A DNA stretch of 64,000 bases from Sulfuritalea sp. Lineage in GTDB: Bacteria; Pseudomonadota; Gammaproteobacteria; Burkholderiales; Rhodocyclaceae. Below, piece after piece: positions 884 to 8,920 of the stretch. The stretch lies in NCBI GenBank assembly GCA_022842325.1, contig JALHPU010000007.1:1-64000 (forward strand). The letters run 5' to 3'. A program made the translations under genes and the position numbers. The first letter of the stretch is position 1, and every line of letters begins with the position of its first letter. Under the pieces are notes generated by a model, which saw only the letters and a list, made by a program, of their open reading frames with translations, had not been told where the DNA came from and made no database searches.

Positions 884-1384
884 ATGAGACGCCTGCTTTA
901 CCTTTTCAGTTTTTTGCTTGCCGCCGCCTTCAGCCTGCCGGCCGCGGCCGACCGCCTGGACGGCGTGGTGCCGCTGGCGAAGGACGACTTCGCCGCCGTG
1001 GCCCAAATCAAGGCCACCCCCGAACGCCACGTCCTGTTGTACTTCGGCGATCATCTGAACTGAGGGGCCTGCCGCTACACCGTGAGTGTGCTAAGCAAGC
1101 CTGAAGTCAGCGCGAAGTTCATCAAGCATTACGTCGGCGCCCATGCCGATTTCGGCGAACTGGAAATGGATGACGATGATCCGCGGCACGCCATGGTCAA
1201 GCGCCACAACCCGCGCAAGCTGCGGCCGGTGCTGGTCTTTCTCGACGGCCAGGGCAAGGAAGTGGCGCGCCTGACCGGGGGTTTGCGGAGCGTCGAAGAC
1301 GCCCTGCTGCTGGATCGCTTCGTCACCGGGAAGCATTACCGCAAGTCGGATTTCTCGGCCTTCAAGGCGGCGCAGCGCGGTTGA
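884..1384 (+). CDS. Predicted periplasmic thioredoxin-like selenoprotein (UGAC motif, in-frame TGA)
   Basis: An ATG at 884 with AGGAG at 873-877 opens a frame that meets TGA at 1061-1063 and then continues open in the same frame to the stop ending at 1384, giving 166 codons. The N-terminus is a clear signal peptide (cleavage near residue 22, LPAAAD). TGA is codon 60, in HLN-U-G-A-C, exactly where a thioredoxin-fold CxxC would lie, after the strand HVLLYFGDH. The downstream part keeps thioredoxin features such as the strand LRPVLVFLDGQGKEV. A hairpin fitting a bacterial SECIS follows the TGA. selA, selB and selC lie within 6.5 kb. I infer that TGA encodes selenocysteine and that the protein is a periplasmic thiol/selenol oxidoreductase. 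An ordinary annotation would split it into a 59-aa fragment and a 100-aa ORF. The 3' end overlaps the convergent hpp gene by 23 bp. Confidence 0.8.
1064..1102 (+). promoter_or_regulatory. Candidate bacterial SECIS hairpin
   Basis: The RNA directly after the TGA can fold. A lower stem pairs 1065-1072 with 1095-1102, with one C/A mismatch and one G/U pair. After an internal loop an upper stem pairs 1076-1080 with 1086-1090, closing on the five-base loop CGUGA (1081-1085). The loop starts 17 nt after the TGA and has G as its second base, which fits the published bacterial SECIS rule of a loop 16-37 nt away with G among its first two bases. The fold was made by eye and no energy was calculated. 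Confidence 0.55.
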
Positions 1385-2306: not shown

Positions 2307-3737
2307 ATGAATCCACTCTCCCAGCTTCCGTCCGTCGACCGCCTGCTATCCGCCCCGGCGCTCGTCGCGCTGGTTGACGCCCATGGCCGCGCGGTCGTTA
2401 CCGGCATGGTGCGCGATGCGCTGGCCGCAACGCGCGGCGCCGTGAAGGCCGGCGCCGCGCCGCCCGACGAAGCCGCGCTGATCGCCGAATTGATCAATGA
2501 GGTCGGCGCTGGCGTCACGGCGAAAATGCAGCCGAAGCTGCGCCCCGTATTCAACCTGACCGGCACCGTGCTGCACACCAACCTTGGTCGCGCGCCGCTG
2601 CCCGAAGAGGCCGTGCAGGCCCTGGTCGCCGCCGCGCGTTCGCCCTGCGCGCTGGAATATGACATCGAGTCCGGCGGTCGCGGCGACCGCGATGACATCG
2701 TCAGCGAGTTGCTCTGCGAACTGACCGGCGCCGAAGCCGCGACGGTGGTGAACAACAACGCCGCCGCCGTGTTCCTGCTGCTCAACACCCTGGCGCAGAA
2801 GAAGCAAGCCATCGTCTCGCGCGGCGAACTGATCGAGATCGGCGGCGCCTTTCGCGTGCCGGACATCATGAGTCGCGCCGGCGCCAAGCTGGTCGAGGTC
2901 GGCACCACCAATCGCACCCACCTCAGGGATTTCGCCGAAGCCATCAGCCCGCGCACGGCGCTGCTGATGAAGGTGCATGCCAGCAACTACGCGATCCACG
3001 GCTTCACCCATGCCGTGCCCGAAGCCGAACTCGCGGCGCTGGCGCACCAGCACAATCTTCCCTTCGTCATCGACCTCGGCAGCGGCACGCTGGCCGATCT
3101 GGCCGCCTACGGCCTGCCGCACGAGCCGACACCGGCCGAGGCGATCGCCGCCGGTGCCGATCTGGTCACCTTCTCCGGCGACAAGCTGCTGGGCGGGCCG
3201 CAGGCCGGCCTGCTGGTGGGGCGCCGCGACCTGATCGCGAGGATCAAGAAGAATCCGCTGAAGCGCGCGCTGCGTGTCGGCAAGCTGACGCTGGCGGCGC
3301 TCGAAGCGGTGCTGGCGCTCTATCGAGATCCCGACCGGCTGCACCTGCGCGTCACTGCCGTGCGTCAATTGACGCGCCCCGAGGCCGAGATCGCGGCGCA
3401 GGCCGTGCGTCTGCTGCCGGCGCTGCGGGCGGCCTTGAGCGGACTGCCGGTGATGGCGGAAATCGTCGCGCTTAAGTCGCAGATCGGCTCCGGCTCGCTG
3501 CCGGTCGACCGCCTGCCCTCGGCCGGCTTTGCCATTAAGCCGCAGGGCAGGCGCAGTGGCGTACTGAATCGCATCGAACGGGGTCTGCGCGCTCTGCCCA
3601 AGCCGGTCATCGGCCGCATCGAGGACGGCGCGCTGCTGCTCGACCTGCGTTGCCTGCAAGCTGAGGAGGAATTCGAATTCGGCGCGGCGCTGGCGGGCCT
3701 GCCCGTGGCGCTTGCAGGACCGGCGGCGGCAGCATGA
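2307..3737 (+). CDS. selA: L-seryl-tRNA(Sec) selenium transferase SelA
   Basis: SelA is a PLP enzyme that converts Ser-tRNA(Sec) to Sec-tRNA(Sec) using selenophosphate. The 476-aa length is normal. The PLP lysine is seen as K293 in [14 protein letters not shown] (E. coli K295), and the N-terminal [19 protein letters not shown] block is typical. It heads an operon: its stop overlaps the start of the TlpA-like gene by 4 bp, and that chain continues through the transglutaminase-like gene to selB. A copy of the dispersed 24-bp motif is embedded in frame at 2499-2522 (NEVGAGVTA). Confidence 0.97.
2499..2522 (+). repeat. Dispersed 24-bp motif, copy 2 (inside selA)
   Basis: The core GTCGGCGCTGGCG is followed by TCACGGCG and is read as EVGAGVTA in SelA. 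It matches the intergenic copies at all but about three positions. Confidence 0.6.
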
Positions 3738-4261
3738 AGCGACGCGGCTTTTTCCGCCATGCGCTAGTGCCGCCGCTGCTCTGGCTGCTGCTGCAGCCTA
3801 TGGCGTTTGCCGCCGCCGATGCCGCAGTGCTCAAACCGGTCATACCGCAAAGCGCGCCAGCCGGCGAGGACCGGCGCCTTGCGCAGCTATTGGCGCGGCA
3901 CAAGGGCCAGCCCGTGGTGATCAACTTCTGGGCCACCTGGTGCGAACCCTGCCGCGAGGAAATGCCCTCGCTGGCGCGCCTCGCCACGCGCTGGCAGGCG
4001 AAGGGCCTGACCGTGCTGACCGTTGCCGTCGCCGACAATGACAAGCGGGTCGCGGAATTCCTCTGGGAAACCCTGCCCGAGAAGCAGACCCTGGCGGTGC
4101 TGCACGACCGTGAGCAGACCATCAGCCGCGCCTGGGGCGCACGCGTGCTGCCGACTACCGTCGTCCTCGATCGCCGCCATCGGATAGTCCTGCGCGGCAT
4201 GGGCGCCATCGACTGGGATGCGCCTGCCATAGAAAAGCAAATTAAAAAACTCACCAACTAA
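3734..4261 (+). CDS. TlpA-like thiol:disulfide oxidoreductase
   Basis: This 175-aa protein has an N-terminal hydrophobic export segment (residues 10-28) and a thioredoxin fold with active site WCEPC (C70, C73) in [17 protein letters not shown], and a cis-Pro region VLPTTVVLD. Such proteins are periplasmic thiol reductases, acting for example in cytochrome c maturation. The ATG overlaps the selA stop (ATGA), so it is translationally coupled to selenocysteine synthesis. A possible role is to keep the nearby periplasmic selenoprotein reduced; this is inference from position only. Confidence 0.88.
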
Positions 4262-4276
4262 CCCCCGGAGAAAACC

Positions 4277-5380
4277 ATGGACCGTCGCACATTCATAAAG
4301 ACCGCCACACTTTCCGCCGCCGCGCTTTCCGCACCACGCTTCGCCTTTGCTGCCGAGGGCGGCGGCTTTAATCCCTCTCCCGCCAACGGCTGGCGTGTGT
4401 TCGAAGTCACCAGCCGTCTCGAACTCTCGGCCGCCAGCGGCGCGCCGCGCGCCTGGCTGCCGCTGCCTGCCGTCGAGGATGCGGCCTGGATCAGGCCGAT
4501 GGGTAACCTCTGGCAGGGCAACGCCGCCGCCGTTCAGCAAGTGCGCGACCCGGCCTATGGCGCACAGATGCTGGTTGCGCAGTGGGATGCCGGCGAGCCG
4601 GCGCCGGTGCTGGAAGTGGTGAGCCGCTTCGCCACGCGCGATCGCGCCATCGATTTCGCGCAGCCGGGCAAGGTGGCCCCGCTCGACAGCGCCACGCGCC
4701 AGCTCTACACCAAGGCCACCGAACTGCTGCCGACCGACGGCATCGTCAGGAAAACCGCGCTGGAAATCACCAGGGGTGCCCGGACCGACATCGACAAGGG
4801 CCGCGCCATCTACGAATGGGTGGTAGACAACACCGAGCGCAACCCGAAAACCAAAGGCTGCGGCACCGGCGACATTCGCGGCATGCTCGAAACGGGCAAT
4901 CTCAACGGCAAGTGCGCCGACCTCAATGCCTTGTACGTGGGTCTGGCCCGCGCCGTCGGCTTGCCGGCGCGCGACGTGTATGGCGTGCGCGTCGCCGATT
5001 CGAAGTTCGGCTACAAGAGCTTGGGCAAGAGCGGCGACATCAGCAAGGCGCAGCACTGCCGCGCCGAGGTTTGGCTGGCGAACTTCGGCTGGGTGCCGGT
5101 GGATCCGGCCGACGTGCGCAAGGTGGTGCTCGAGGAAAAACCCGGCCTTACGCTGAAGGACGAGGTGGTGGTCGCGGCGCGGCAGAAACTGTTCGGCGCC
5201 TGGGAGATGAACTGGCTGGCCTACAACTTCGCCCACGACCTAAAGCTGCCGGGTTCGAGCGGTGCGAAGATTCCGTTCCTGATGTATCCGCAGGCCGAGA
5301 ACAACACGGGCCGGCTCGACAGCCTCGACCCCGCGAGCTTTGTCTACAAGCTGAGCTCGAAGGAAATCAGCGCCGCATGA
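4277..5380 (+). CDS. Tat-exported transglutaminase-like domain protein
   Basis: The 367-aa protein starts with a twin-arginine signal ([18 protein letters not shown]) and carries a transglutaminase/protease-like core with the catalytic triad C213 ([15 protein letters not shown]), H260 ([10 protein letters not shown]) and D276 (WVPVDPAD). Family members hydrolyse or modify peptides and amides. The start lies 15 bp after the TlpA-like stop with GGAG upstream, and the stop overlaps the selB start. Its placement inside the sel operon is unusual, and its substrate is unknown. Residues 295-367 may bind a partner. Confidence 0.83.
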
Positions 5381-7311
5381 TCATCGGCACCGCGGGCCAC
5401 ATCGACCACGGCAAGACGACGCTGGTCAAGGCGCTCACCGGCGTCGATGCCGATCGCCTGCCGGAGGAAAAGGCGCGCGGCATCACGCTCGACCTTGGCT
5501 ATGCCTATGTGCCGCAGGCCGACGGTTCGGTGCTCGGCTTCATCGACGTGCCGGGCCACGAGAAGCTGATCCACAACATGCTGGCCGGCGCCACCGGCAT
5601 CGACTTCGTGCTGCTGGTGATTGCCGCCGACGACGGCCCGATGCCGCAGACGCGCGAGCACCTGGAACTGCTCGAACTGCTCGGCCTCGATCGCGGTGCG
5701 GTGGCCCTGACCAAGTGCGACGCGGTCGATGCGACGCGCATAGCTGCGGCGCGCGCGGAGATCGCTGCCCTGCTGGCCGGCACGCGCCTGCAAGGCAGCC
5801 CGCTGTTCGCCCTGTCGGCGACGACCGGCGCCGGCGTCGCGGAGTTGCGCGCCCACCTCGACGCGGTGGCGGCCACACACACGGCGCGCAGCGCCGCAGG
5901 CCGCTTCCGCCTTGCCATCGACCGCTGCTTCACGCTGTCGGGCATCGGCACGGTGGTCACCGGCACGGCCTTCTCGGGAAGAGTCGGCGCTGGCGATACG
6001 GTGGTGATCGCCCCCACGCAACGCGGCAGCCATGGCGGAATCAGGGCGCGGGTCAAAAGCCTGCACGTGCAGGACCGCCCCGCGCAACACGGCCAGGCCG
6101 GCGAGCGCTGCGCGCTGGCGCTGACCGGCGACTTCGAGAAGCAGGACGTCGAACGCGGCATGTGGCTGGTCGAACCCGCGGCGGCCCGCCCCTTGACCCG
6201 GTTCCAGGCCGAACTGCATGTGCCGGCGACGCAGGCCGCGCTGAAGCACTGGACGTCCGTGCATCTGCATTTGGGCGCGGCCGACATCACCGGCCGCGTT
6301 GCCGTGCTGGAGGGCGACCAGATCGCGCCGGGCGCCACGGCCCTGGCGGAAATCCTGCTCGACCGCGAAACCCTCGCGGTGCGCGGCGACCGCTTCGTGC
6401 TGCGCGACGCCTCGGCCCGGCGCAGCATTGCCGGCGGCCGCGTGCTCGACTGCTTTCCGCCGACGCGCCACAAGCGCAGTCCGGCCCGGCTGGCCCTGCT
6501 CGCCGCCCTGCGCGACGACGATCCGGCGATCAGCCTGCGCCTGCTGGCGGGACAAGCCACGGCGGGCATCGATCTCTGCCGCTTCGCCGCCAACTGGAAT
6601 CTGACCGAGGATGCGGCGACGGCGCTGTGGCAGGCCGCCGCCTTGCGCGTGGTGCGCAGCGGCGAGCAGCAGATCGGCTTTGCCGCGGCCGGCTGGCAGG
6701 CCCTCGGCGAGCGCCTGCTGGCCGCACTTGCGACGGAGCACCAGCGCGCCCCGGACATGGTCGGCGTCGAGCGCGAACGGCTGCGCCGACTGACGCTGCC
6801 GACGCTGGAACGCGCCGCCTTCGATGCGCTGGTGGCCGAACTGCTCGCCGCCGGCCGCCTCGCCGCCTCGCGCGCCTGGCTGCATCTGCCCGAGCACCAG
6901 GCCAGCCTCGCCGCCGGCGACCGCGACCTGTTCGCCGTGCTGCAGCCGCTGCTCGATGCGCAAGCCTTCGGCCCGCCGCGCGTACGCGACATCGGCAAGG
7001 CCTCGGGTACCGCCGAGGACGCGGTGCGGCAATTATTCCGTCGCGTCGCCCGCGCCGGCGAACTCTATCCGGTGGCGCACGATCACTACTTCACGGCGCA
7101 GGCCGTGGCGCAACTGGCGGCCATCGTCGCCGAGCTCGATGCCGCGCACGGTGCGGCCCGCGCCGCCGACCTGCGCGACCGCATCGGCGGCGGGCGCAAG
7201 GTGGCGATCCACATCCTCGAGTTCTTCGACCGCATCGGCTACACTCGCCGCGTGCGTGACGAGCACATAGTGCGCAGCACCGGCGCGACCCACGCATGGC
7301 TGAATAACTAG
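5377..7311 (+). CDS. selB: Selenocysteine-specific elongation factor SelB
   Basis: SelB is a GTPase that carries Sec-tRNA(Sec) to UGA codons by binding SECIS hairpins. The 644-aa protein shows G1 GHIDHGKT (7-14), switch II DVPGHE (57-62) and G4 TKCD (112-115, where many GTPases have NKxD), then EF-Tu-like domains and C-terminal winged helices ending [18 protein letters not shown]. The true start is ATG 5377, overlapping the upstream stop; the frame stays open further upstream but only as a shadow of the transglutaminase-like gene. A copy of the 24-bp motif encodes RVGAGDTV in domain II. tRNA-Sec follows 8 bp later. Confidence 0.97.
5980..6003 (+). repeat. Dispersed 24-bp motif, copy 3 (inside selB)
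   Basis: The sequence reads AGAGTCGGCGCTGG then CGATACGGTG. In SelB it falls on the naturally conserved domain II turn ([10 protein letters not shown]), so it is accommodated by the protein rather than inserted into it. Confidence 0.6.
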
Positions 7312-7318
7312 ACAACAC

Positions 7319-7414
7319 GGAAGAGAACGTTCCCCGGTGGGGCGGCCGGTCTTCAAAACCGGCAGGGGTCGCCATGCGGTCCCTGGTGGGTTCGACTCCC
7401 GCTCTCTTCCGCCA
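7319..7414 (+). tRNA. selC: tRNA-Sec (UCA anticodon)
   Basis: The 96-nt gene includes an encoded GCCA end. It has the 8-bp acceptor stem typical of bacterial tRNA-Sec (GGAAGAGA with TCTCTTCC), the anticodon loop CTTCAAA with UCA at 7353-7355, a long variable arm and a GGTTCGACTCC T-arm. It closely resembles E. coli selC. It sits directly after selB, so selA, selB and selC form one locus. sodC starts 22 nt downstream. Confidence 0.98.
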
Positions 7415-8105: not shown

Positions 8106-8537
8106 ATGAGCCGCACACCCTTCCGCGGCGCCGTGCCCGACGGCCTGCGCTACGACCCGGAGCACGACATGTGGGTGCGGGGTGGCGAGGATGAAGTGCT
8201 GATCGGCGCCACGGCGTTCGGCACCTTCCTTGCCGGCGAGATCATTGCCTTCACCGCCAAGCCGAACGGTGCCGAGGTCGAGCTGGGCCGCGGCCTGGGC
8301 ACGGTCGAATGTGCCAAGACCGTGCTCGCCGTGCATGCGCCGCTCTCCTTCGTGCTGCTGGAAGGCAACGAGGCCGTCGAGGAACGCCCGGCCATGCTCA
8401 ACCGCGATCCCTACCATGCCGGCTGGATGGTGCGCGGCCGGCCCACGGCCTGGGCGGCGGAGAGCGGGCGGCTGGTGGATGCGGCGAGCTATCGACTGCA
8501 CATTAAACGCATCGAACCTGAAGCGGAGTTCCTGTGA
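8106..8537 (+). CDS. GcvH-like lipoyl-carrier protein
   Basis: The 143-aa protein has the H-protein fold signature RYDPEHDMWVR and a lipoylation lysine K71 in GTVECAKTV. No gcvT or gcvP lies nearby. Instead a DsrE-like protein follows with a GTGA overlap. Standalone GcvH-like proteins in sulfur-oxidising bacteria serve as lipoate-binding carriers (LbpA) for the sHdr system, and others carry moonlighting roles. Which applies here cannot be read from the sequence. The start is preceded by the GGGGGGAGG end of the long intergenic repeat. Confidence 0.82.
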   Translation: MSRTPFRGAVPDGLRYDPEHDMWVRGGEDEVLIGATAFGTFLAGEIIAFTAKPNGAEVELGRGLGTVECAKTVLAVHAPLSFVLLEGNEAVEERPAMLNRDPYHAGWMVRGRPTAWAAESGRLVDAASYRLHIKRIEPEAEFL

Positions 8538-8920
8538 GCGGGCAGCGCAGCAAGCTCGCCATCCTGCTCTGGTCGGCCACGCCGGAGCGGCCCCAGCTCT
8601 GCGCCACGCCCTTCGTGCACGCCGCGGCGGCGGCGGCCTTCGATTGCGAAGTGGAGATTCACTTCGCCGGCCCGGCCGTGCGCCTGCTGGTGGCCGGCGT
8701 TGCCGAATCCCTGCGGCCCTGGCCTGGCGTCGACACCTCGATCTACCAGATGATGCGTCAGGCGGCCAATCTCGATGTCAGCTTCCGTGCCTGCGCCATG
8801 GCCATGGGCGCGCTGGTCGGCCCGGACGAGGCGCTGATTCCCGAATACTCCGGTACGGTCGCCGCCAGCGTTTTTGTTCAACGCGCGCTCGATCCGGAAT
8901 GGGCGACGCTGGTGTTCTGA
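8534..8920 (+). CDS. DsrE/DsrF-like small protein
   Basis: This 128-aa protein resembles the DsrE fold: LAILLWSATPERPQLCATPFVHAAAAAAFDCEVEIHFAGPAVRLL and a C-terminal half containing FRACAMAMGAL with a cysteine at the position often used for sulfur transfer. DsrE-type proteins carry persulfide sulfur in tRNA thiolation or sulfur oxidation. GTG at 8534 overlaps the GcvH-like stop, so the two are coupled, suggesting that a lipoyl dithiol and a persulfide carrier work together. The sulfur role is inferred. Confidence 0.7.
   Translation: MSGQRSKLAILLWSATPERPQLCATPFVHAAAAAAFDCEVEIHFAGPAVRLLVAGVAESLRPWPGVDTSIYQMMRQAANLDVSFRACAMAMGALVGPDEALIPEYSGTVAASVFVQRALDPEWATLVF

Follow-up and report, generated by a model that had tools for sequence, protein, structure and literature searches.

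A predicted thioredoxin-fold UxxC selenoprotein encoded beside selA, selB and selC in Sulfuritalea

The window analysed here is a whole stretch of 64,000 nucleotides from Sulfuritalea sp. (Rhodocyclaceae; assembly GCA_022842325.1, contig JALHPU010000007.1, positions 1–64,000), and near its start, at 884–1384 of the forward strand, lies a predicted selenoprotein gene neighboured by selA, selB and selC. The frame 884–1381 encodes 166 residues and contains a single in-frame TGA at codon 60, giving an active-site motif of U-G-A-C (YFGDHLN-U-GAC-RYTVSVL in the context of the surrounding residues). The initial annotation of this DNA, made from its letters, had placed a TGA at the first cysteine of a thioredoxin CxxC, and the frame does read through at that position. 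The parts of the gene are as follows.

884–1384, + strand: predicted selenoprotein gene of 166 codons, with the in-frame TGA at 1061–1063 and a terminal stop TGA at 1382–1384
873–877, + strand: AGGAG, Shine-Dalgarno-like, ahead of ATG884
884–949, + strand: predicted signal peptide, residues 1–22, recognised by eye from the sequence (hydrophobic stretch, AAA before D23)
1061–1063, + strand: TGA, very likely read as selenocysteine (Sec), residue 60, first position of UxxC
1070–1072, + strand: Cys63, predicted resolving cysteine of UxxC, invariant in a 23-row alignment of family members
1074–1091, + strand: core hairpin of a predicted selenocysteine insertion sequence (SECIS), with bulged U 1076 and loop 1081–1085 containing G1082-U1083
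1082–1084, + strand: GTG (codon 67), start of the fragment proteins found in databases, inside the hairpin loop
1226–1228, + strand: Pro115, candidate cis-proline of the thioredoxin fold, invariant in the same 23-row alignment

Conservation across the in-frame TGA

Genome scans and searches of named contigs yielded 34 distinct Rhodocyclaceae orthologues of 65–99% identity (window included; 29 of 32 named loci are the same as loci of the genome scans), all 34 of which carry TGA at codon 60 and a Cys three codons further on, while none has Cys in place of Sec60. Homologues agree in sequence before and after the TGA. Within the genus, 26 of 31 genomes gave a match, and all 27 places at 69–99% identity carry exactly one in-frame TGA, the remaining eight places being remote, stop-free proteins of 28–31% identity. 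Matches were found in 48 of the 249 genomes of the family, with the TGA present in all 11 places at 65–99% identity and the other matches stop-free at 24–42% identity over partial or full length. At the level of the order, 18 of 399 genomes matched (E ≤ 1e-9), with the TGA confined to the window and to G526, a genome of another family; a profile search of 369 genomes of the class gave a match in 80 of them at the same threshold, with no TGA other than the window's own. The named GTDB contigs provided 32 loci, with Sulfuritalea or Rhodocyclaceae in many of their titles, and the arrangement TGA-N10-GCTACACCGTGNGTGTGC occurs in all of them. Among 31 sequences the active-site motif is UGAC in 27, UGTC in three and USAC in one; it reads UGAC in L080 and L095 and UPFC in L099. 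In the 14 orthologues compared at this site, GGAG or GGAA stands ahead of the start codon.

The mean ratio of non-synonymous to synonymous substitution rates (dN/dS, 31 sequences) is about 0.31 for codons 24–59 and about 0.29 for codons 61–166, indicating that the codons on either side of the TGA are under purifying selection, which would not be expected of a true stop or of a decaying gene.

The predicted SECIS hairpin and the selenocysteine machinery

The hairpin at 1074–1091, GC-U-ACAC-CGUGA-GUGU-GC, is built of two base pairs, a bulged U, four more pairs and a loop of five bases containing G-U. The same design (GG-U-AUCC-AGUCU-GGGU-CC) stands 11 bases past the single in-frame TGA of this genome's formate dehydrogenase alpha gene (fdhA; G000:C2). 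In PMC8659212, U17, G23 and U24 are given as the bases that are fixed in bacterial hairpins, at 11 nucleotides from the UGA; the fdhA hairpin agrees with this spacing and the window hairpin sits one base closer. The initial annotation was right that a SECIS-like hairpin is present, and it proved invariant and of the fdhA design, but it does not start directly after the TGA, its core beginning 10 nucleotides on. Codons 64–69, which lie beneath the hairpin, show zero synonymous variation in 31 sequences, the only such run of six testable columns and the lowest six-column run (mean over 92 testable columns 0.31; 0 of 100,000 permutations). Ser68 is replaced by Gly in two sequences and by Arg in one, always through loop base 1085.

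When both strands of the window were scanned for a SelB-type design after each TGA trinucleotide (1568 in all), only this hairpin matched, being reachable also from an out-of-frame TGA at 1056. The same scan across 13,049 TGAs of loci L068 and up gave 59 matches at the selenoprotein gene (some counted twice, from two overlapping TGAs), nine at fdhA and six elsewhere. The lower stem shows partial pairing only, and Rfam returned no SECIS match at the locus and one chance match (E 5.8). From its design and invariance, we predict that the hairpin is a SECIS element that would bind SelB.

The genes flanking the selenoprotein gene include those for selenocysteine synthesis and insertion:

156–659, + strand: fdhE, C-terminal part as called from GTG156
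1362–2234, − strand: HPP-type membrane protein (PF04982)
2307–3737, + strand: selA
3734–4261, + strand: TlpA/ResA-like thioredoxin with CxxC
4277–5380, + strand: transglutaminase-like protein (PF01841)
5377–7311, + strand: selB
7319–7414, + strand: selC, tRNA-Sec, anticodon TCA

The genome possesses selA, selB, selC and selD; the complete machinery had been claimed to lie within 6.5 kb, which holds for the first three, selD being on a separate contig. In the genus (31 genomes), selB scored over the cut-off in 26 genomes, including 25 of the 26 carriers of the gene, and was absent from four of the five non-carriers (Fisher p 8e-4). In the family (249 genomes), it was found in 73, including all 11 with the selenoprotein gene (p 8e-7, with genomes that are not independent of one another). 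The exception among carriers, G029, is 83% complete and lacks a selB over the cut-off, and the non-carrier G026 has two selB genes over the cut-off (on C16 and C7).

Related families, database entries and a second clade

The thioredoxin structure noted by eye after the TGA was borne out by an AlphaFold model, whose thioredoxin fold lies close to those of DsbH and the C-terminal domain of DsbD, with many other thioredoxin folds also scoring. Structural alignments with DsbH (PDB 2ju5) and the DsbD C-terminal domain (PDB 1uc7 and 2fwh) gave 17–25% identity, and the window protein differs from both in having Sec for the first Cys and in not being part of a membrane DsbD. It had no match to the DsbH model NF043050 at E ≤ 1, this model being matched weakly by 15 of 23 members (best E 2.2e-4). 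Likewise, it had no Pfam match at E ≤ 1, and hence none at the gathering score of PF13098, to which nine of 23 members matched weakly (best E 3.1e-5). The thiol:disulfide interchange selenoproteins assigned to PF13098 in Table 1 of PMC13188914 (representative WP_011366075.1) are, like the window protein, thioredoxin-like with UxxC; they are set apart by the domain match. TsoB, a rhodanese/DsbD fusion-like selenoprotein (NF045694), was matched by seven of 23 members (best E 3.1e-6), but its model is a fusion of 572 positions whereas the window protein has 166 residues and no match at E ≤ 1. The model of SelL-related redox proteins (NF040769) was matched weakly by 15 of 23 members (best E 0.0097), the window protein scoring 12.3 bits where the cut-off is 120; it falls below every cut-off in NCBIfam. 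A sequence search of the PDB found no convincing match (best E 0.29). The Sec formate dehydrogenase alpha subunit encoded in this genome is an unrelated protein, with which the window protein shares only an RNA signal, the SECIS design (11 nucleotides after the UGA there, 10 here).

A 2026 review, PMC13188914, counts 119 selenoprotein families or subfamilies. The family is absent from the listings of the reviews consulted, including Table 1 of that review, though it may be listed in PMC12013261 or in the study of groundwater metagenome-assembled genomes by Deng et al. 2026. Among the papers searched, none combined Sulfuritalea with selenoprotein, and none combined three of selenoprotein, selenocysteine, Rhodocyclaceae and Rhodocyclales. 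On these comparisons, the best reading is that the window protein represents a new family of thioredoxin-fold UxxC selenoproteins.

Automatic annotation had been expected to shorten the gene, and this is what the database entries listed show. Among the best 120 of 226 matches to the window protein, 119 have 98–103 residues, one has 130, and none is full length; the best 120 of 263 matches in a profile search have 97–103 residues throughout, bar the same 130-residue entry. Six of seven database sequences inspected start after the first half of the hairpin, and the 130-residue entry lacks the UxxC region. Compared with the window, this last entry (P0002) is the same protein minus 36 codons within 1043–1158, the UGA and hairpin included, and an 8-base direct repeat, TTCGGCGA, with copies 108 bases apart in the window, lies at the exact ends of the gap, which may be either a real deletion or an assembly artefact. 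Cys at the Sec position was found in remote homologues only, at about 24–42% identity across the full length or a part of it. Neither the genome scans nor the best 120 of 226 database matches contained a close Cys form. A full-length Cys orthologue should outscore fragments, so that its absence from these top matches is informative, if short of proof.

The TGA-containing gene of G526, from a different family of the same order, reads U-AG-C. Among the 74 genomes of its family, relatives at 47–51% identity to it were found in G1066, G1069 and G1050, together with a partial copy with two TGAs in G1072; four other matches are remote Cys proteins. This clade B, of four UxxC genes and one partial copy, has UxxC in all, and its protein search returned two entries, of 87 and 96 residues. 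The bulged-U design was absent from the five clade B sequences. Three of them, when folded, form a different hairpin about 10 nucleotides past the UGA (z −2.57, −2.24 and −1.05). A second hairpin, CTCTCCGGSGGAGAG, is found about 30 nucleotides past the UGA and is near-identical across all five (L145–L149). A selB match at E ≤ 1e-60 is present in 67 of the 74 genomes, in 66 of them over the cut-off, so that co-occurrence with selB carries little information for this clade. A tree of 71 rows, from which 16 of the 31 rows of clade A, 12 Cys rows and L149, the partial copy of clade B, had been dropped, places the 19 Sec rows together on one side of a branch (94/82, not starred), with a single U/C change; L054, the neighbour of this branch, is a long branch. 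An earlier tree of 89 rows left out seven Cys rows.

Interpretation of the gene and its alternatives

Given a reading frame conserved across an invariant UGA, an invariant hairpin, the adjoining selA, selB and selC and the co-occurrence with selB in the family, we consider it highly probable that 884–1384 is one gene in which UGA encodes selenocysteine under the direction of a predicted SECIS, the product being a predicted exported thioredoxin-fold protein with a UxxC active site that would act as a disulfide reductase of the periplasm. Two points weigh against the SECIS: the fold energy of the window hairpin is not significant (z −0.73), a measure that does not discriminate, and the hairpin shows no covariation, because it is invariant. 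The observation made in the initial annotation is confirmed as more than chance and its interpretation supported, none of the refuting conditions that it set having been borne out when checked, the oxidoreductase function being a prediction from sequence and fold, as are the signal peptide and export. We infer that the protein would be exported and cleaved and would have a redox role, in which Sec60 may attack a substrate disulfide or oxidised thiol and Cys63 may resolve the selenenylsulfide. Re-reduction could proceed through partners such as the DsbD or CcdA-like membrane proteins of the genome, as in reducing pathways of the DsbD/DsbH type.

A rather unlikely alternative accepts the selenoprotein and has it serve the Sec-formate dehydrogenase or selenium supply, for instance by maintaining the reduced state of envelope thiols or selenium species. 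The neighbourhood lends this some weight, as fdhE lies upstream in the flank of 23 of 32 named loci, 29 have selA in the available flank and another, L076, has only selB, and in L085 and L090 about 50 bases separate the end of the gene from selA, which follows on the same strand. Such an arrangement may merely reflect joint inheritance of Sec genes, however, and L083 and L095 have no sel gene within the available flank, while the genes scanned beside the clade B gene in L136 are unrelated.

It is very improbable that the TGA is a true stop separating a short exported peptide from a 100-residue gene starting at GTG1082 or from a decaying remnant. Gene callers do split the frame there, and most of the listed database proteins have the corresponding length, but the same TGA, with no other stop, recurs in 34 orthologues under purifying selection on both sides, the split would sever the thioredoxin fold ahead of the active-site helix, and GTG1082 lacks a Shine-Dalgarno sequence at normal spacing; this reading was rejected on the dN/dS values and the orthologues. 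Marginally less credible still is decoding of the UGA as some other amino acid, by near-cognate read-through or a suppressor tRNA, given that selC and selB adjoin the gene, that the hairpin has the fdhA design and that in the 249 family genomes the gene occurs only alongside selB. A sequencing or assembly error turning TGC or TGT into TGA, suggested by the Cys found in remote relatives, has a negligible chance and was rejected, as separate assemblies contain the same TGA in the 34 orthologues.

More tentatively, and with the balance of probability against it, the selenoproteins of both clades may form an obligate-Sec lineage of envelope thioredoxin-fold reductases, DsbH/DsbD-C-like, with no close Cys form, spread over two families of one order, using two SECIS designs and situated in Rhodocyclaceae in a selA-selB selenium island. 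If this were true, some redox tasks of the envelope would not fall to Cys enzymes, and a gene of this kind could, alongside formate dehydrogenase, help to keep the Sec trait in a lineage. The small predicted exported enzyme, with predicted Sec in every one of the orthologues, makes a clean test case for the reasons that a lineage retains selenocysteine. It also adds a selenoprotein family present only in shortened form among the database matches listed, an annotation that a single family model would repair. Because no close Cys form was found, discovery methods built on Cys/UGA pairs, as described in PMC12013277 and PMC13188914, could miss the family; the authors of the former state that selenoproteins lacking Cys homologues may be lost by their method.

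Both the TlpA-like CxxC gene and the transglutaminase-like gene between selA and selB (3734–5380) occur in seven of the 32 named loci (L068, L079, L081, L086, L088, L089 and L098) and are absent from most others. GcvH-like and DsrE-like genes (8106–8920) follow selC and sodC, a position kept in many named loci. Elsewhere in the genome, a second SelD-like match over the cut-off occurs within a 757-residue frame (G000:C25:2566-5466), which suggests a fusion; the contig also carries a CcdA-like gene nearby.
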